From: Salegentibacter salinarum
GTDB lineage: Bacteria > Bacteroidota > Bacteroidia > Flavobacteriales > Flavobacteriaceae
NCBI RefSeq assembly: GCF_900168115.1
Contig: NZ_FUZC01000011.1
Location: 62,001 to 126,000, forward strand
Reading direction: 5' to 3'
DNA length: 64,000 nt
The notes beneath the pieces were generated by a model that was given only the letters and a program-made list of their open reading frames with translations, did no database searches and was not told the DNA's origin. Positions 43,510-52,058 of the stretch are shown here, piece after piece. Every line of letters starts with the position of its first letter. Position 1 is the first letter of the stretch. The translations under genes and the position numbers were made by a program.

Positions 43510-46341
43510 CTAATGCGCTTCCAGCCAGTTATTGCCTTCTCCTAGCTCGACATCTAAAGGAACTTCAAGTTTGTAGGCATTTTCCATTTCGTATTGAATC
43601 ATTTTCTTCACTTCTTCCACTTCATCTTTATGGGCATCAAAAACCAATTCATCATGTACCTGTAGCAACATTTTGGTTTTGAATTTTCCTTCATTCAATT
43701 TTCTGTAAATATTGATCATTGCTAGTTTAATTATATCGGCAGCGCTGCCCTGGATAGGCGCGTTTACCGCATTTCTTTCGGCAGCGCCTCTAACTACGGC
43801 ATTTTGCGAATTAATATCTTTTAAATAACGCCTTCTGCCTAAAACCGTTTGCACATAGCCATTTTCCCTGGCAAAAGCCACCTGATCTGCAATGTAACCG
43901 GTGAGTTTTGGATAGGTTTTGTAATAGGTCTCTATAAGTTCTTTTGCTTCAGAACGTGATAAATTGGTTTGGTTGCTCAAGCCAAAAGCTGAAACACCAT
44001 AAATAATCCCAAAATTCACGGTTTTGGCGTTGCTTCTTTGCTCGCGGGTTACTTCATCTATATTTACATTAAAAACCTGTGCCGCAGTAGAAGCGTGAAT
44101 ATCCTTGCCTTCCTTAAAGGCTTTTATCATATTGTCTTCCTCGCTTAGCGCCGCGATAATTCTTAGTTCAATTTGAGAATAATCGGCAGCCAGTAGAATA
44201 TGATTTTCGTCTCGCGGAATAAAAGCTTTTCTTACCTGCCGGCCACGCTCGGTTCTAATCGGAATATTCTGTAGGTTCGGGTTATTGGAACTCAATCTTC
44301 CGGTTGCGGCGATAGTTTGCACATAATCAGTATGGATTCTTCCGGTAGGCTTCTGTACCTGGTTTGGCAACGAATCTACATAAGTATTTTGCAATTTTAC
44401 CAAAGCACGATACATCAAGACGTCTTCTACAATCTTGTGTTCTTTTACTAAAACCGAAAGCACATCTTCACTGGTAGAATACTGGCCGGTCTTGGTCTTT
44501 TTGGGTTTCTTCACCAGAGCCATTTTTTCAAAAAGAATAAGGCCCAGTTGTTTCGGAGAACTAATTTTAAATTCTTCGCCGGCTTCTTTATAAATTCTTT
44601 GTTCCAGTTCTTTAATATCGCTGTCCAAAGCATCAGAAAGGGATTTCAGGAAATTTTCGTCTAAATTTATGCCTTCCAGTTCCATTGCGGCTAAAACTCG
44701 AACAAGCGGAATTTCAATTTCATCAAAAAGTTTTCGGGTTTCTGCTTCTTTGAGTTCCTGCTCAAAGAATTTTTTAAGCTGAAGGGTGACATCGGCATCT
44801 TCAACGCCATATTCGGTTTGCTCTTCCAAAGGTACATCCCACATCGATTTTTGATTCTTTCCTTTTTTACCAATTAATTCTGAAATAGGCTGCGGACTGT
44901 AATTTAAATAGGTTTCGGCCAGCACATCCATATTATGACGCATATCCGGATTTATCAGGTAATGGGCGATCATCGTATCGAAAAGCCTTCCTTTTATTTC
45001 AATATTATATTTAGCTAATACTTTAATATCATATTTAAGATTTTGACCGATTTTTTCAATTTTTTCATCTTCAAAAAATGGTCTTAATTCTTCAATAAGT
45101 TCTTGTGCATTTTCACGTTCTTCTGGAAACGGCAGGTAAAAACCCTTTCCGGTTTCCCAGGAAAAAGCGATCCCAACAAGTTCAGCTTCCAGTGCGTTTA
45201 AACTCGTAGTTTCAGTATCTACACAAACGCTTGTTTGTTTCATTAAATTCTTAAGAAACAATTCCCTGCCCATTTTGGTATTCAGGCTCTGGTATACATG
45301 CGGAGTATCTTTTAATGATTTTCTCCCCCCTGTACTGGCTTCAATTTTTTCTGAATTATCACCGCCAAATAAAGAAAACTGACCTTCGCCGGCGGTTTTT
45401 GAAACTTTTTTAGCTGAAGGAGAATTGGTAACCTGGGTTTGTTGCTGGTCTTCTTCACCGCTAAATAGTTTTATAAATTGATCTCTCAACCTTCTAAATT
45501 CAAGTTCTTCAAAAATCTCCTGGACCTTTTCAGCATCTGGTTGAGAAAGTTCGTAATCTTCAGCGTGGAATCTTACATCGCAATCGGTAAGAATAGCTGC
45601 GAGTTTTTTAGAAAGAATTCCCTGTTCGGCGTGACTTTCAACTTTCTCTTTCATTTTACCCTTTAACTGGTCAGTATTAGCCAGTAATTCTTCCATACTT
45701 CCAAATTGCTTCAGGAACTTTTTAGCAGTTTTTTCACCAACCCCGGGAAGTCCGGGTATATTATCTACCGCGTCGCCCATCATACCAAGAAAATCTATCA
45801 CCTGCTCGGGACGTTCAACCCCAAATTTCTTCTGAACTTCGGGAATACCCCAAATTTCTATTCCATTACCCATTCTAGCCGGGCGGTACATAAAAATATT
45901 TTCGGTTACTAGCTGGGCAAAATCTTTATCGGGAGTCACCATAAATACCTGATAATTCTCTTTTTCGGCTTGCTGGGCAAGGGTGCCAATAATATCATCG
46001 GCTTCACAACCGGGTAATACCACCACAGGGATATGCATGGCATTTAAAATATCCTGGATAATAGGGATGGCCTGCATTATGGGTTCTGGAGTGGCATCTC
46101 TATTGGCTTTGTATTCGGAGAACATTTCGGTTCTTACCTGGCTGCCTTCTTTATCAAAACAAACCGCGAGGTGATCTGGTTTTTCCCGCCTAATAACATC
46201 AAAAAGGGAGTTCATAAAACCCATTATTGCAGATGTATCAAAACCTTTAGAATTTATCCTGGGATTTTTAATAAAAGCGTAATAACCACGAAAAATAAGT
46301 GCGTAAGCGTCTAGTAAAAATAAGCGTTTTTGAGCTGCCAT
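43510..46341 (-). CDS. polA: DNA polymerase I
   Basis: Repair and Okazaki-processing polymerase, 943 aa. The 5-prime nuclease domain occupies about residues 1-300 (LFLLDAYALIFRGYYAF; PGCEADDIIGTLA; FLGMMGDAVDNIPGLPGVGEKTA). The 3-prime exonuclease (about 350-540) keeps the DxE pair in VDTETT, the aspartate in NLKYDIKVL and the Y-x3-D in YGVEDADVTLQ, so proofreading looks intact. The polymerase palm and fingers hold LLAADYSQIELRI, RSNAKTVNFGIIYGVSAFGL and the catalytic VHDELV near the end. No fusion or truncation. Isolated leftward gene with A-rich repeat sequence downstream. Confidence 0.96.
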   Translation of the reverse strand: MAAQKRLFLLDAYALIFRGYYAFIKNPRINSKGFDTSAIMGFMNSLFDVIRREKPDHLAVCFDKEGSQVRTEMFSEYKANRDATPEPIMQAIPIIQDILNAMHIPVVVLPGCEADDIIGTLAQQAEKENYQVFMVTPDKDFAQLVTENIFMYRPARMGNGIEIWGIPEVQKKFGVERPEQVIDFLGMMGDAVDNIPGLPGVGEKTAKKFLKQFGSMEELLANTDQLKGKMKEKVESHAEQGILSKKLAAILTDCDVRFHAEDYELSQPDAEKVQEIFEELEFRRLRDQFIKLFSGEEDQQQTQVTNSPSAKKVSKTAGEGQFSLFGGDNSEKIEASTGGRKSLKDTPHVYQSLNTKMGRELFLKNLMKQTSVCVDTETTSLNALEAELVGIAFSWETGKGFYLPFPEERENAQELIEELRPFFEDEKIEKIGQNLKYDIKVLAKYNIEIKGRLFDTMIAHYLINPDMRHNMDVLAETYLNYSPQPISELIGKKGKNQKSMWDVPLEEQTEYGVEDADVTLQLKKFFEQELKEAETRKLFDEIEIPLVRVLAAMELEGINLDENFLKSLSDALDSDIKELEQRIYKEAGEEFKISSPKQLGLILFEKMALVKKPKKTKTGQYSTSEDVLSVLVKEHKIVEDVLMYRALVKLQNTYVDSLPNQVQKPTGRIHTDYVQTIAATGRLSSNNPNLQNIPIRTERGRQVRKAFIPRDENHILLAADYSQIELRIIAALSEEDNMIKAFKEGKDIHASTAAQVFNVNIDEVTREQRSNAKTVNFGIIYGVSAFGLSNQTNLSRSEAKELIETYYKTYPKLTGYIADQVAFARENGYVQTVLGRRRYLKDINSQNAVVRGAAERNAVNAPIQGSAADIIKLAMINIYRKLNEGKFKTKMLLQVHDELVFDAHKDEVEEVKKMIQYEMENAYKLEVPLDVELGEGNNWLEAH

Positions 46342-46479: not shown

Positions 46480-47409
46480 TTGAAAAAAATAGCAATAGCC
46501 ATTCACGGTGGCGCGGGGACTTTGTTGAAAGGGATAATGACGCCCGACAAAGAAATTTCCTATAAAAAAAGTTTGGAAACCGCACTTAATGCAGGTTATA
46601 AAATCCTGGAAAATAAAGGGAATGCGGTAGATGCGGTTACCGAAGCCGTGAGAATCCTGGAAGATTCTCCTTTATTCAACGCGGGAAAGGGAAGCGTTTT
46701 TACAAACGCCGGCAGCCATGAAATGGATGCATCAATTATGAACGGTGAAAATCTTGAGGCCGGCGCAGTTTCATTGATTAGCGGGATTAAAAATCCCATT
46801 TTGCTGGCAAAAAATATTATGCAAAAAAGTGAGCACGTTTTTTTAGCGGGAACAGGTGCAATGGAATATGCTAACTTATTAGGCTATAAACTGGAACCGG
46901 AAGACTATTTTTATGATGATTTCAGGTATAATCAATGGCAGGAAATTAAAGATTCTGATAATTTTCAGTTAGATCATAATGTGCAAAAAGATTCCAAATT
47001 CGGGACGGTGGGTGCCGTAGCCTGTGATTTTGAAGGTAATGTGGCTGCAGCAACTTCTACCGGGGGAATGACCAATAAAAAATTTGGAAGAATTGGGGAC
47101 AGCCCAATGATTGGCGCGGGTACTTATGCCAATAACAATACCTGTGCGGTTTCCTGCACCGGCACCGGCGAATTTTTTATTCGCGGGGTGGTTGCTTACG
47201 ATGTTTCCTGTCTTATGGAGTATAAAGGCTTAAGCTTAAAAGATGCTGCCGACGAAGTTGTTCAGAAGCGACTTATATCCATTGGGGGAGACGGCGGTTT
47301 AATTGCTGTTGATGCAAAAGGAAATATTACTACGCCTTTCAATACTGAAGGAATGTACCGCGCGAGTATAGATACCCACGGCACTCAAAAATTAGACATC
47401 TATAAGTAA
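46480..47409 (+). CDS. iaaA: Isoaspartyl peptidase / L-asparaginase (plant-type)
   Basis: N-terminal nucleophile amidohydrolase that cleaves beta-aspartyl dipeptides such as beta-Asp-Arg, the product of cyanophycinase. The precursor self-cleaves before T176 in SKFGTVGAVACD. HGGAGTLL near the start and GRIGDSPMIGAGTYA are also family signatures. Length 309 aa is normal. Start is TTG at 46480 (TTG-AAA-AAA-ATA). It converges with cphB, with only 2 bp between stops. In the local context it likely finishes cyanophycin breakdown. Confidence 0.92.
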   Translation: MKKIAIAIHGGAGTLLKGIMTPDKEISYKKSLETALNAGYKILENKGNAVDAVTEAVRILEDSPLFNAGKGSVFTNAGSHEMDASIMNGENLEAGAVSLISGIKNPILLAKNIMQKSEHVFLAGTGAMEYANLLGYKLEPEDYFYDDFRYNQWQEIKDSDNFQLDHNVQKDSKFGTVGAVACDFEGNVAAATSTGGMTNKKFGRIGDSPMIGAGTYANNNTCAVSCTGTGEFFIRGVVAYDVSCLMEYKGLSLKDAADEVVQKRLISIGGDGGLIAVDAKGNITTPFNTEGMYRASIDTHGTQKLDIYK

Positions 47410-47411
47410 GA

Positions 47412-48275
47412 TTATTCTATAAAACTTTTGGAGGAAGCCATAACTTTAACTTTCCGTTCTTTTAGATAATAACTATCCCCATCTGAAAGCACGTGGGTAA
47501 TTAGGTTAGTCATCGTTAGGGGTGTTCCGTCTTTTAACCGGGCGATATTGTTATGTTTCAGGTTCCCGGGATCAAAAATAATTACCATTCCAGAACCTAT
47601 AATATCACATTCGTTTCCGTTTTTAATTACAATTCCGGTGTCTTCAGCAAGACCAAAACCGATAAGTTGTGGAAATCGCGCAACAGCTTCAGACAACCTT
47701 CCAAAACGACCACGCTGTATAAAGTGGGTGTCAATAATGAGTTCGGGAATAAGATTCAGGCCTTCGCGCAACTTAATAGCGCCTTTAATAAACGATTCTT
47801 TGCTGCTTCCGCCGGTTATCATTTCTTTAGACATACACATAGCACCAGCGCTGGTCCCGGCTAATACAAAATCTTCTTCGTAGTAGCGTTTTACCAATAA
47901 ATCGTGAAAAAGTGTCCCTTTAATATTCCGGGTTATTTTATATTGATTTCCACCGGAAAACATCACGCAATCGGCATCCTTCAGCAAGTTTAGATTTTCT
48001 TCTGAATTTGCTTCTTCTTTTGAATCTATATAGAGATGAGATACATTATTGCAGCCTAATCTTTCAAATGCATCCATATAACTTTGTCCCACTTCATCTG
48101 GTATGCCTGAAGCGGTAGTAATTACAAGAATATTCGCACCATTTCCACCACTTTCATAAACTACCCGGGAAAGAATGCCCTGACTAATATAATCCAACCT
48201 AAAACGGTCGGCTCTATGAAAGCCTTTGTCTTCATTTCCGCCAATGGGTATTAAAGTTCCTTTAATCATATTCAT
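47412..48275 (-). CDS. cphB: Cyanophycinase
   Basis: Serine exopeptidase (S51) that releases beta-aspartyl-arginine from cyanophycin. The nucleophile is S142 in AGTSAGAMCMS; IPIGGNEDKGFHRADRFRL and MFSGGNQYKITRNI (about residues 104-118) complete the family pattern. Length 287 aa is typical, and no signal peptide is seen, so it acts inside the cell on stored granules. The ATG at 48275 or the second one two codons on are both possible starts. It is divergent from cphA, 109 bp apart, and convergent with iaaA. Confidence 0.92.
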   Translation of the reverse strand: MNMIKGTLIPIGGNEDKGFHRADRFRLDYISQGILSRVVYESGGNGANILVITTASGIPDEVGQSYMDAFERLGCNNVSHLYIDSKEEANSEENLNLLKDADCVMFSGGNQYKITRNIKGTLFHDLLVKRYYEEDFVLAGTSAGAMCMSKEMITGGSSKESFIKGAIKLREGLNLIPELIIDTHFIQRGRFGRLSEAVARFPQLIGFGLAEDTGIVIKNGNECDIIGSGMVIIFDPGNLKHNNIARLKDGTPLTMTNLITHVLSDGDSYYLKERKVKVMASSKSFIE

Positions 48276-48384
48276 TTTATAAATAGTCGTAAAAGTAACT
48301 TATATAAGTTGGGGGTCAAATATTACGTACATTTAAATGCGGCTAAATAACAGAGTTTCAGAAAAATAAATAGGTAGGTAAAAT

Positions 48385-51012
48385 ATGAAGATACGGGAAA
48401 TAAATGCTATGCGCGGCCCCAATTATTGGTCGGTTAGAAGGCATAAATTAATTGTCATGGTCCTTGATCTTGAAGATATGGAACAAAAACCAACCAATAA
48501 AGTGCCGGGTTTTAGTGAGCGCATCAAGGCGATGTTTCCAACAATGTATGAACATCGTTGCTCTGAAGGTTGCGAGGGAGGTTTTTTTATGAGGGTAGAT
48601 GATGGTACCTGGATGGGTCATGTTATAGAACATATTGCTTTAGAAATACAAACCCTGGCAGGAATGGATGTGGGTTTTGGGAGAACGCGTGGTTATGGCG
48701 AAGAAGGTGTTTACAATGTGGTTTTTAATTATTTAGAAGAAAAAGCCGGAAGATTTGCCGCAGAAAGTGCGGTGCGTATATGTGAAGCGCTTATTGCAGG
48801 AAGAACGTATAACCTGGAAGCCGATTTACAGGAAATGCGAGAACTTCGTGAGTCTGAAAGGCTAGGGCCAAGTACGGGATCTATTGTAGAGGAAGCCGCC
48901 AGTCGCGGTATTCCGTGGATTAGGCTAAACCAGTATTCGCTTTGCCAGTTAGGTTATGGGGCAAATCAGAAAAAAATTCATGCTACCGTAACCAGCCAAA
49001 CCAGCAGTATTGGTGTAGAACTGGCTTGCGATAAAGAAGATACCAAATATTTACTGGAGCAAGCCGAGGTACTAGTACCTAAAGGCAGAATTATAGAATC
49101 TGCGAAGGAACTAAAAAAGACTATTGCTACAATTGGATTTCCGTTGGTTACTAAACCAATAGATGGGAATCACGGTCGGGGCATTAGCGTAGACATCAAT
49201 TCTATGGAAGCGGCGATTAAAGGTTTTAAAGCGGCCAAAAAAATTTCTAATTCAGTAATAGTCGAGAATTTTATAACCGGAGACGATTATCGCCTTTTGG
49301 TAATAAACCATAAGCTGGTTGCCGCAGCAAAACGCACCCCGGCGCACGTGATAGGCGATGGAAAATCGAGTTTACAAGAATTGATAGATGAGGTTAACAG
49401 TGACCCACAAAGAGGCTATGGTCACGAGAAAGTACTTACCATGATTACGGTTAACGATCTTACCAAAAGTATTATTCAATCTTATGGGTATACCCTGGAG
49501 ACCATCGTAAAAAAAGGGGAACAGGTTATTTTAAAGGATACGGCAAATTTAAGCACCGGTGGAACATCAGAAGATGTAACCGATATGGTGCATCCTTCCA
49601 GTATATTTATGGCTGAAAGGATTTCAAAAATCATAGACCTGGATATTTGCGGAATAGATTTAATGACCACCGATATTAGCAAACCCCTGGAAGAAACTAA
49701 TGGTGCAGTGATAGAAGTAAACGCGGCTCCCGGTTTTAGAATGCACCTTGCTCCGTCTAAAGGAATTCCACGAAACGTGGCAGCAAATGTTGTGGATATG
49801 CTGTTTCCACCGGGAACCAGTGCCCTAATTCCAATAATAGCAGTAACCGGCACCAATGGGAAAACAACGACAACAAGACTTATTGCCCATATGCTTAAGA
49901 TGAAAGGGCACCGGGTTGGTTACACTACCAGCGATGGAGTATATATTCAAAACCGCATGCTTATGCAGGGCGACTGCACAGGGCCATCAAGCGCGGAGTT
50001 TGTACTGCGGGATCCTACCATAGATTATGCAGTTTTAGAATGTGCTCGCGGAGGTCTTTTAAGATCCGGCCTGGGTTTTCATAAATGCAATGTGGGAATT
50101 GTTACCAATGTAACGGGAGACCATTTAGGATTGAAAGGAATACACAGTATTGAACAACTGGCCCGCGTTAAGGGAGTTTTACCGGAAACCGTAACGAAAG
50201 AAGGCTATGCGATTTTAAATGCCGATGATGATTTGGTTTTTAATATGAGTAAAAGTGTAGAAAGCAATGTCGCCCTCTTTTCTATGGACGAGAATAACGT
50301 TCATATAAAAGCTCTGGCAGCGAAAGGTGGCCTGTCGGCTATTTATGAGAGTGGTTATATTACTATTTGTAAAGGCGAATGGAAATTAAGAATTATAAAA
50401 GCTGTGAATGTACCTTTAACCTTTGGGGGAAAGGCAACTTTTATGATCCAGAATGTATTACCGGCTGTGCTTGCAGCCTACGTAAGAGGTTTTAGTGTAG
50501 AAGATATCAAGGTTTCTTTAGAAACATTTATTCCGTCTCCGGGTCAAACCCCGGGAAGGCTTAATTTATTCGAATTTCAAAACTTCCAGGTATTGATAGA
50601 TTATGCGCATAATCCGGCGGGTTTAAGAGCCTTAAAAGATATGCTTGATAAAATGGAAGCTACAATAAAAGTTGGGATTATAGCCGGGGTGGGCGATCGC
50701 CGCGATGAAGATACCAAAGAAATAGGAAGTATTGCTGCAGAGATTTTTGATGAAATAATTATTAGGCAGGACAAGAATTTGCGAGGAAAATCAACCACGG
50801 ATATTAGGGAAATGCTTAAAAAAGGCATTAGAGAGAACCATCCCAATAAGAAAATTACTAATATAGATTCAGAAAAAGAAGCTATTACTTCAGCTATAGA
50901 AAATGCTAAAGATGGTTCTCTTATTGTGCTATGCAGTGATATGGTTGCCGAATCCCTGGAACTCGTGATGAAATTAAAGGAAAAAGAGGTAAAGAAACTT
51001 TATAATTTATAA
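48385..51012 (+). CDS. cphA: Cyanophycin synthetase
   Basis: Makes cyanophycin, a polymer of aspartate with arginine side groups, from Asp and Arg using two ATP-dependent steps. The N-terminal domain covers about residues 1-160, the ATP-grasp part about 170-470 (GNHGRGISVDI near 261; EVNAAPGFRMH near 444) and the Mur-ligase-like part about 480-875 with P-loop GTNGKTTT at 489-496, LECARGGLLRSGLGF, and IDYAHNPAGLRAL. Length 875 aa is usual for CphA. A hairpin terminator follows. Regulation is probably through the divergent promoters in 48276-48384. Confidence 0.95.
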   Translation: MKIREINAMRGPNYWSVRRHKLIVMVLDLEDMEQKPTNKVPGFSERIKAMFPTMYEHRCSEGCEGGFFMRVDDGTWMGHVIEHIALEIQTLAGMDVGFGRTRGYGEEGVYNVVFNYLEEKAGRFAAESAVRICEALIAGRTYNLEADLQEMRELRESERLGPSTGSIVEEAASRGIPWIRLNQYSLCQLGYGANQKKIHATVTSQTSSIGVELACDKEDTKYLLEQAEVLVPKGRIIESAKELKKTIATIGFPLVTKPIDGNHGRGISVDINSMEAAIKGFKAAKKISNSVIVENFITGDDYRLLVINHKLVAAAKRTPAHVIGDGKSSLQELIDEVNSDPQRGYGHEKVLTMITVNDLTKSIIQSYGYTLETIVKKGEQVILKDTANLSTGGTSEDVTDMVHPSSIFMAERISKIIDLDICGIDLMTTDISKPLEETNGAVIEVNAAPGFRMHLAPSKGIPRNVAANVVDMLFPPGTSALIPIIAVTGTNGKTTTTRLIAHMLKMKGHRVGYTTSDGVYIQNRMLMQGDCTGPSSAEFVLRDPTIDYAVLECARGGLLRSGLGFHKCNVGIVTNVTGDHLGLKGIHSIEQLARVKGVLPETVTKEGYAILNADDDLVFNMSKSVESNVALFSMDENNVHIKALAAKGGLSAIYESGYITICKGEWKLRIIKAVNVPLTFGGKATFMIQNVLPAVLAAYVRGFSVEDIKVSLETFIPSPGQTPGRLNLFEFQNFQVLIDYAHNPAGLRALKDMLDKMEATIKVGIIAGVGDRRDEDTKEIGSIAAEIFDEIIIRQDKNLRGKSTTDIREMLKKGIRENHPNKKITNIDSEKEAITSAIENAKDGSLIVLCSDMVAESLELVMKLKEKEVKKLYNL

Positions 51013-51019
51013 ATAAGTA

Positions 51020-51063
51020 AAACCTTAAATTCCAATGCAAAACTGTATTAGAATTTAAGGTTT
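51020..51063. terminator. Bidirectional terminator after cphA
   Basis: AAACCTTAAATTC (51020-51032) pairs exactly with GAATTTAAGGTTT (51051-51063) across an 18-base loop. It lies between the convergent cphA and the glycosylasparaginase-like gene. Confidence 0.82.
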
Positions 51064-51080
51064 AAAAATGGGATGATTCC

Positions 51081-52058
51081 TTATTGAGAAATGTAAGATT
51101 TACTGGTGGTATTTATGTTTTTACTGTCCTGATATTTAACATACGAAAAGCCTTCGTGAATGCAATAAGAACCTATTTCTCCGTTTTTATGTAGAGCTAT
51201 AAATGCAGCTTGAAAATCTTTGTAATTTGGGTTTTGTTTAATAATTCGCTGCACGGCTATTTCACAGGCTTCCTGCGGACTTTTACCCTGTCGCATTAAT
51301 TCAACAATTAGAAAGCTCCCAACACTTTTCAAAATTACTTCGCCCATTCCCGTGGCAACAGCCCCGCCAATTTCGTTATCCAGGTATAAGCCGGCACCGA
51401 TTATGGGGGAATCGCCTACGCGACCATTCATTTTGTAAGCAAGGCCAGAGGTAGTGCAGGCACCGGCAATATCGCCCCTGTCGTCCAGGCAAAGCATTCC
51501 TATGGTATCGTGATTTTCTATGTTAATAACGGGTTTGTATTCTTTATCTATCAGCCATTCTTTCCAGGCTTTTTCCGATTCTTCAGTAAGCAGGTTTTTT
51601 CGCTGAAATCCTTGCTGAATGGCAAATTGTAAAGCGCCTTCCCCCGCAAGCATGACGTGAGGAGTTTCTTCCATAACCTTCCTGGCTACTGAAACCGGGT
51701 GTTCAATTTCCTTTAAATAGACTACGCTGCCGCAGTCTCCGGAAGGAGCCATAATACAAGCATCTAAAGTTACATTGCCATCACGATCTGGTGCGCCGCC
51801 ATTTCCAACCGTAGTATTTTTAAGATTAGCTTCTTCAATTCTAACACCTTGTTCTACGGCATCTAAAGCTGAAGTTCCTTTATAAAGAAGTTCGCCTGCA
51901 GTTTTACTGGCTTCGTGAAAATTCCAGGTGGCGATACAAATTGGTGTAGGCTTTTGCTCCTTTCTAAATGTTGCGGCGTTTAAATTTAAGTTTCCGGGGA
52001 GGAGCCCTACGCCTGCTCCCGCAATTCCGGCAGCTTTTATAAAATTTCTTCGTTTCAT
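51081..52058 (-). CDS. N4-(beta-N-acetylglucosaminyl)-asparaginase-like Ntn hydrolase with Tat-type signal
   Basis: Second N-terminal nucleophile asparaginase in the cluster. MKRRNFIKAAGIAGAGVGLL is a twin-arginine-like signal (RRNFIK), so the mature enzyme is probably exported. The auto-cleavage site is before T185 in ENHDTIGMLCLD, as in glycosylasparaginase (HDT). Other segments, GGAPDRDGNVTLDACIM and GAVATGMGEV, fit. Length 325 aa. It could cleave Asn-linked sugar amides or beta-aspartyl peptides outside the cytoplasm. Its place beside cphA suggests a link to beta-aspartyl compounds but does not prove it. Confidence 0.85.
   Translation of the reverse strand: MKRRNFIKAAGIAGAGVGLLPGNLNLNAATFRKEQKPTPICIATWNFHEASKTAGELLYKGTSALDAVEQGVRIEEANLKNTTVGNGGAPDRDGNVTLDACIMAPSGDCGSVVYLKEIEHPVSVARKVMEETPHVMLAGEGALQFAIQQGFQRKNLLTEESEKAWKEWLIDKEYKPVINIENHDTIGMLCLDDRGDIAGACTTSGLAYKMNGRVGDSPIIGAGLYLDNEIGGAVATGMGEVILKSVGSFLIVELMRQGKSPQEACEIAVQRIIKQNPNYKDFQAAFIALHKNGEIGSYCIHEGFSYVKYQDSKNINTTSKSYISQ

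Follow-up and report, generated by a model that had tools for sequence, protein, structure and literature searches.

The window examined here, a stretch of 64,000 nucleotides from the genome of Salegentibacter salinarum (Flavobacteriaceae), carries a compact locus for the metabolism of cyanophycin. Three genes encode an isoaspartyl aminopeptidase (iaaA), a cyanophycinase (cphB) and a cyanophycin synthetase (cphA), and a fourth encodes a second protein of the N-terminal nucleophile (Ntn) hydrolase type (Table 1). All four open reading frames (ORFs) are intact, with 0 inner stops. Profile searches identify the genes flanking the cph block as polA, the Ntn gene, and phosphoesterase and thioredoxin genes; no AstE/AspA or M14 gene, the mark of a CphZ-type locus, adjoins cphA among the flanking proteins of the window. 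An initial annotation had described four genes within 5.6 kb, with Ser142, Thr176 and a signal like that for twin-arginine translocation (Tat), and on these points the ORFs, profiles and residues agree with it. Its proposal that the organism makes, mobilizes and fully hydrolyses cyanophycin is likewise borne out as far as sequence can predict, with the cycle placed in the cytoplasm. Very probably, iaaA, cphB and cphA form a complete cytoplasmic cyanophycin cycle, and the Ntn gene next door is a bystander. The locus is real, intact and ordinary, with one gene fewer than first claimed.

The three cyanophycin proteins and their genes

CphA scores 1258.6 bits against TIGR02068 (curated cut-off 850) and resembles two solved synthetases in whole length and key residues: residues 1-862 align with SuCphA1 (7lg5; E = 4.4e-293) and residues 1-861 with TeCphA1 (7wac). 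Residue roles were assigned on an alignment inspected by eye against PMC9427784 and PMC9262961; here and below, statements credited to papers refer to passages of them. In the ATP-grasp site, H263 and R303 are kept, as are E212, R317, N388, S390 and R452, which contact the chain and Asp, and K493, T494, E552, D579 and H580 of the Mur-ligase site. The primer-making motif of the N domain, Cx19HxxEH, is present from residue 59. The initial annotation had proposed comparing both ATP sites and the primer-making N domain with characterized synthetases, loss of active-site residues in CphA being its main refuting observation; since these residues are kept, its reading survives that comparison and primer-free synthesis is predicted. 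CphB reaches 212 bits against TIGR02069 (cut-off 126.6), and its nucleophile Ser142 lies within GTSAGA.

IaaA belongs to PF01112 (379.5 bits), and its score of 357.4 bits against the NCBIfam beta-aspartyl-peptidase model of the E. coli type is below the cut-off of 567. On its resemblance to 2zak, it is classed among the isoaspartyl peptidases of PF01112 and not as that NCBIfam equivalog. Thr176, within GTVG, and Thr185 of the second Ntn protein each correspond to the first beta-chain residue of solved relatives. The autocleavage Thr176 and the substrate-binding R204 and D207 are kept in all 40 IaaA proteins of the cph type.

Gene content, order and kept residues are read directly from these comparisons; substrates, product and cell location are predicted as follows. 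The ATP-grasp domain of CphA would put Asp on the chain end, the Mur-ligase domain would attach Arg to the newly added Asp, and the N domain would cleave chains to yield primers. CphB would then cleave the polymer to beta-Asp-Arg, which a cytoplasmic IaaA would split into Asp and Arg.

The tie between IaaA and CphA is directly visible in their co-occurrence. Of 199 family genomes, almost every one from a different genus, 36 encode a CphA that exceeds the cut-off. IaaA orthologues (at least 67% identity; next matches 59%) occur in 35 of these 36 and in 0 of the 163 genomes lacking CphA, the threshold having been chosen after the 67%/59% gap was visible and the genomes being related, so that the counts are not independent. 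CphB above 200 bits is found in the same 35 genomes. The lone CphA-positive genome without a cph-type IaaA (G089) is 82% complete and gives 0 cyanophycinase matches at E 1e-20. In this genome, an AstE/AspA-type gene (PF24827) follows cphA (L065:7968-11714); the product of such a gene is a cyanophycin dipeptide hydrolase according to Sharon and Schmeing 2023 (PMC10206079).

In the IaaA tree, 15 paralogues fall on one side of a branch (97/88), whereas the cph-type proteins have weak support as a single clade (69/59), with three long rows nearby. A lipobox-like N-terminus is found in 13 of the 15 paralogues and in 0 of the 40 cph-type proteins. The two groups differ in 13 alignment columns, none of which is assignable to Arg binding from sequence alone. 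The window genome itself has such a paralogue (L008; G000:C17:495491-496438), 55% identical to the window IaaA and with a lipoprotein-like N-terminus.

Several observations weigh against a working cycle. In CphB, the loop reads DTHF, versus DQHF in Synechocystis CphB and 7uqv, where the Gln beside the conserved Asp is important. The loop position is Thr or Ser in all 68 CphBs that adjoin an Ntn gene of either type discussed in this text, and the residue is seen as a variant of the phylum and not as a loss. In CphA, the sole change in the residues compared is conservative: the Mg-binding Thr522 of the Mur domain in SuCphA1 and TeCphA1 is Ser516 in the window protein. Only 4 of 15 genomes of the genus have cphA. 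The start codon of iaaA is unusual, and the gene evolves more rapidly than those around it. Finally, IaaA enzymes are known to be promiscuous (PMC10206079), and linkage to cph genes is therefore no proof of substrate.

These points feed different alternatives. A product of CphA other than classical Asp-Arg cyanophycin, such as a related polymer carrying Lys or some other side residue, is very unlikely. Some CphA1 enzymes accept Lys at lower efficiency (PMC10206079), and the window CphB loop is unlike the cyanobacterial one, but the residues tied by PMC9427784 and PMC9262961 to binding of the chain, Asp and ATP are all kept. Decay of iaaA, considered as a cause of its TTG start, is rejected. 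Among 71 iaaA starts readable by a motif script, some from the same assemblies, 70 are ATG and the window's is the sole TTG, and the start of the nearest relative, missed by the script, is GTG. All seven genes compared with the nearest relative are under purifying selection, with ratios of nonsynonymous to synonymous substitution (dN/dS) of 0.010-0.084; iaaA is the fastest of them, with 82.5% identity (91-99% for the others) and dN/dS 0.084. It is also improbable, if somewhat less so than a different polymer, that IaaA serves in general isoaspartyl repair and lies beside cphB by chance. Published tests of enzymes from two such clusters, one IaaA and one IadA, found them unspecific (PMC10206079), and the fixed iaaA-cphB order could be chance inheritance from a single ancestor. 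Against this stand the distribution of cph-type IaaA, with the non-independence of its counts, and the separate lipoprotein-type paralogue present in the window genome and in many genomes lacking CphA.

The initial annotation also held that the genes, alternating in strand, are regulated separately. This argument is weak: iaaA and cphB are convergent, and a single 109-bp region lies between the divergent cphB and cphA. Promoter motifs were scanned in 36 family and genus intergenic regions, against shuffles preserving single-base content only. The motif TANNTTTG, which we take to be the Bacteroidetes -7 element, occurs toward cphB in 31 of the 36 regions (shuffled mean 2.4, highest 8). Toward cphA, TANNTTTR occurs in 35 regions (shuffled mean 11.1, highest 19); every instance has the TTTA form, and the full TANNTTTG (TTTG form) occurs in 0 of 36. 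The window region has the weaker form in both directions. A TTG -33 box 17-23 bases from the -7-like element is not supported, being present in 0 of 36 regions on the cphA side and in 2 of 36 on the cphB side, the window being one. Regulation is a prediction here, and cphA and cphB may plausibly be controlled together.

Table 1. Positions of the cyanophycin genes and adjoining features in the window
Feature	Position	Strand	Basis
polA (DNA polymerase I), conserved left neighbour of the block	43510..46341	-	ORF and profile search
iaaA, isoaspartyl aminopeptidase / plant-type asparaginase (PF01112), no signal peptide, TTG start, nucleophile Thr176	46480..47409	+	
cphB, cyanophycinase (TIGR02069, PF03575 S51), Ser142	47412..48275	-	
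cphB-cphA divergent intergenic region, 109 bp	48276..48384		
-7-like element TACTTTTA, toward cphB	48290..48297	-	place derived from motif-scan index
-7-like element TACATTTA (form TANNTTTA), toward cphA	48328..48335	+	place derived from motif-scan index
cphA, cyanophycin synthetase 1: N domain, ATP-grasp domain, Mur-ligase domain	48385..51012	+	
Glycosylasparaginase gene, Tat signal, Thr185; neighbour, very probably outside the cyanophycin system	51081..52058	-	

The neighbouring glycosylasparaginase gene

The second Ntn protein is also a member of PF01112, but at 131.1 bits it lies below the NCBIfam beta-aspartyl-peptidase cut-off of 567. Residues 38-312 are closest to the glycosylasparaginase 1p4k (E = 3.2e-109), which we take to come from Flavobacterium/Elizabethkingia meningoseptica; the best isoaspartyl peptidase match has E = 5.2e-35. 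The window protein matches 1p4k but has a Tat-like signal, just above the model cut-off (19.6 versus 16.7 bits), with TatC encoded in the genome, and its gene adjoins cphA.

In the genus set (15 genomes, one only 61% complete), the glycosylasparaginase gene occurs in 13 genomes, in one case with an inner stop, whereas the CphA N domain occurs in four. At 7 of 11 genus sites fetched, the polA, glycosylasparaginase, phosphoesterase and thioredoxin genes stand in window order without any cph gene; two of these seven mates (G200 and G211) carry cph genes elsewhere in the genome. At the other four sites, no polA, phosphoesterase or thioredoxin gene was found in the stretch fetched around the glycosylasparaginase gene. 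All seven mates have a transporter ORF of ~437 residues between polA and the glycosylasparaginase gene, on the same strand as the latter and ~3-4 bases from it (three bases after, at L096:6687-8969). This transporter belongs to the major facilitator superfamily (MFS), scoring above the cut-offs of the fucP and gluP models and far under that of NagP. A 91% identical transporter is encoded elsewhere in the window genome (G000:C21:40970-42274) and in G207, whose block also lies at polA. In the seven mates, a search of the interval from polA to the glycosylasparaginase gene found no trace of iaaA, cphB or cphA at E 0.01.

Beyond these sites, 38 other CphA loci were compared, 35 from the family sample and three more from the genus. 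The glycosylasparaginase gene lies within the fetched stretch in 17 and adjoins cphA in two (L044 and L081). In 13 of the 17, it directly adjoins an ORF of cluster c5 or c10, of which one or two members each were Pfam-tested and are GH92 and MFS proteins. With GH92 and MFS-transporter neighbours pointing to a use in N-linked sugars, the glycosylasparaginase most likely acts on Asn-linked sugars, not on cyanophycin.

The initial annotation had treated all four genes as one system, in which the exported Ntn enzyme would handle beta-aspartyl compounds outside the cytoplasm. Adjacency to cphA in the window and in two other loci, presence in the stretch in 17, and membership of both Ntn proteins in one family speak for this, as does the low beta-aspartyl dipeptidase activity that glycosylasparaginases can have (PMC10206079). 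Nevertheless, the idea is scarcely tenable. The match to 1p4k, the presence of the gene in 13 of 15 genus genomes irrespective of cphA (4 of 15), adjacency in only 2 of 38 loci, the FucP/GluP-type transporter gene as its neighbour beside polA in seven cph-free sites, and the GH92 or MFS company in 13 family loci all count against it, and the exported enzyme is rejected as a part of the cyanophycin system. A misleading fourth gene is thereby removed from the model. For work outside the cytoplasm, the lipoprotein-like paralogue L008 is a better candidate.

Distribution and history in the family

The order iaaA(+) cphB(-) cphA(+) recurs in 35 of the 38 other loci, some with intervening genes; the exceptions are L065 (cphA alone), L075 (on a short contig) and L082 (all genes collinear). 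A further sample, the best 80 of 591 loci from named genomes, partly comprises the same assemblies as the family set. In this sample, 60 loci show the order, among them loci from Polaribacter, Kordia, Winogradskyella, Bizionia, Aequorivita and Psychroserpens. The other 20 comprise ten with cphB and cphA in such a setting without iaaA, one with both on one strand, and nine with cphA alone, some of these contigs being short. The arrangement is a trait of the family and is not special to this organism.

The patchy presence of cphA in the genus could reflect recent horizontal transfer of the block into the polA site. Two genus mates fit this: in L080, the block has the same order away from polA, and in L082, a collinear cphA-cphB-iaaA set shows 49-55% identity. 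Moreover, the site that holds the transporter gene in the seven mates is taken up by the block in the window, as in G207, and both of these genomes have the transporter elsewhere. Such a transfer is nonetheless unlikely, although less so than the alternatives discussed above. PolA is encoded within the fetched stretch in 28 of the 38 other loci. Protein distances for CphA, CphB and IaaA track those for PolA across the 26 loci that contain all four genes (Mantel r 0.62, 0.71 and 0.71; 0 of 2000 permutations as high). In L049, polA, the block, the transporter and the glycosylasparaginase gene are consecutive, consistent with the mates having lost the block. We infer that the cph block is an old locus of the family that has often been lost, and this nitrogen-storage locus would then be an old, often missing trait of one family.

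Dipeptidase candidates in the phylum and known systems

In the phylum, CphA exceeds the cut-off in 46 of 395 genomes. The loci inspected are 43 newly fetched and three earlier ones, together with two second copies and with four loci whose scores fall short of the cut-off. Layout A, with a window-type IaaA beside cphB, is found in 13 of the 46 genomes, the three earlier ones included. Layout B, with a divergent Ntn gene downstream of cphB on the same strand, is found in 22, in 21 of them linked to the cphA locus; in the remaining one (G458), the cphB-Ntn pair is on another contig. One of the two layouts is thus present in 35 of 46 genomes, and neither was seen in 11. The layout B protein has ~282 residues and is 31-35% identical to the window IaaA; two that were tested belong to PF01112 (257 and 253 bits). 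Seven active-site positions checked are kept in all 25 members, which form one clade (100/99). A search of the 395 genomes gives 25 strong matches (at least 63% identity and at least 363 bits; next 136 bits), 22 of them in CphA-positive genomes. It is fairly likely that the layout A IaaA and the layout B enzyme are the isoaspartyl dipeptidases missed in Bacteroidota by the 2023 survey, separately recruited and retained almost exclusively where the polymer is produced or consumed.

The three remaining layout B genomes belong to one CphA-negative family (L200:5428-8837, L201:7998-16022 and L202:1072-3535). An S51 gene is present in L200 and L201, and a DcuC-type transporter gene lies beside the Ntn gene in L200 and L202; these loci look suited to importing cyanophycin or the dipeptides derived from it. 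In another genome (G071) with no CphA above the cut-off, genes for a TonB-dependent receptor, a SusD-like protein, an IaaA (50%), an S51 peptidase and a DcuC-type transporter are consecutive (L195:3501-11259), an arrangement resembling a SusCD-type locus for uptake of cyanophycin.

Other loci vary in their CphA complement. Two genomes (G276 and G345) have a second, distant CphA, 52-54% identical to that of the window, alongside a layout B locus (L164 and L169). A second CphA-like ORF at L173:10800-12491 is limited to the middle and C-terminal domains of the Mur ligase; similar second matches occur in L171, L172 and L178. In three genomes of one genus (L175, L176 and L177), CphA occurs without CphB in the fetched stretch. 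Pfam scans of some cphA neighbours in the Ntn-less loci L136, L155, L159, L162 and L175 gave no defensible dipeptidase candidate; one gene beside CphA in L136 encodes an S41 peptidase.

In the passages of PMC10206079, the dipeptidase of Firmicutes and Bacteroidota is called undiscovered. A search of the literature since 2022 for a Bacteroidota cyanophycin dipeptidase returned this paper as its sole match, subscription papers and preprints lying outside its scope; searches on Flavobacterium, on Chryseobacterium and on isoaspartyl peptidase returned no record describing such a link of IaaA or Ntn genes to cphA. The IaaA lineage that travels with cyanophycin may be the step thought absent in the phylum, and the survey yields a concrete, testable candidate for it.

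Known Bacteroidota systems provide the setting. Synthase, cyanophycinase and isoaspartyl aminopeptidase are all reported in Dyadobacter linearis (PMC11573002), cphA with granules seen by electron microscopy in Flavobacterium sp. TH167 (PMC5887021), and cphA expression in Flavobacterium psychrophilum (PMC9723704); the passages concerned give no gene order, link of an IaaA lineage to cphA or divergent Ntn gene. In PMC10206079, IaaA or IadA is found in 22.1% of 86 Bacteroidota genomes with CphA1, whereas a linked Ntn hydrolase is usual here, two figures from different samples and thresholds that are compared without a re-count. The pathway itself is already known, and the window by itself is a well-formed example. 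Among 153 genomes with all three functions in PMC10206079, 49 have the genes clustered, and the window clusters cphA1, cyanophycinase and iaaA in the same manner.

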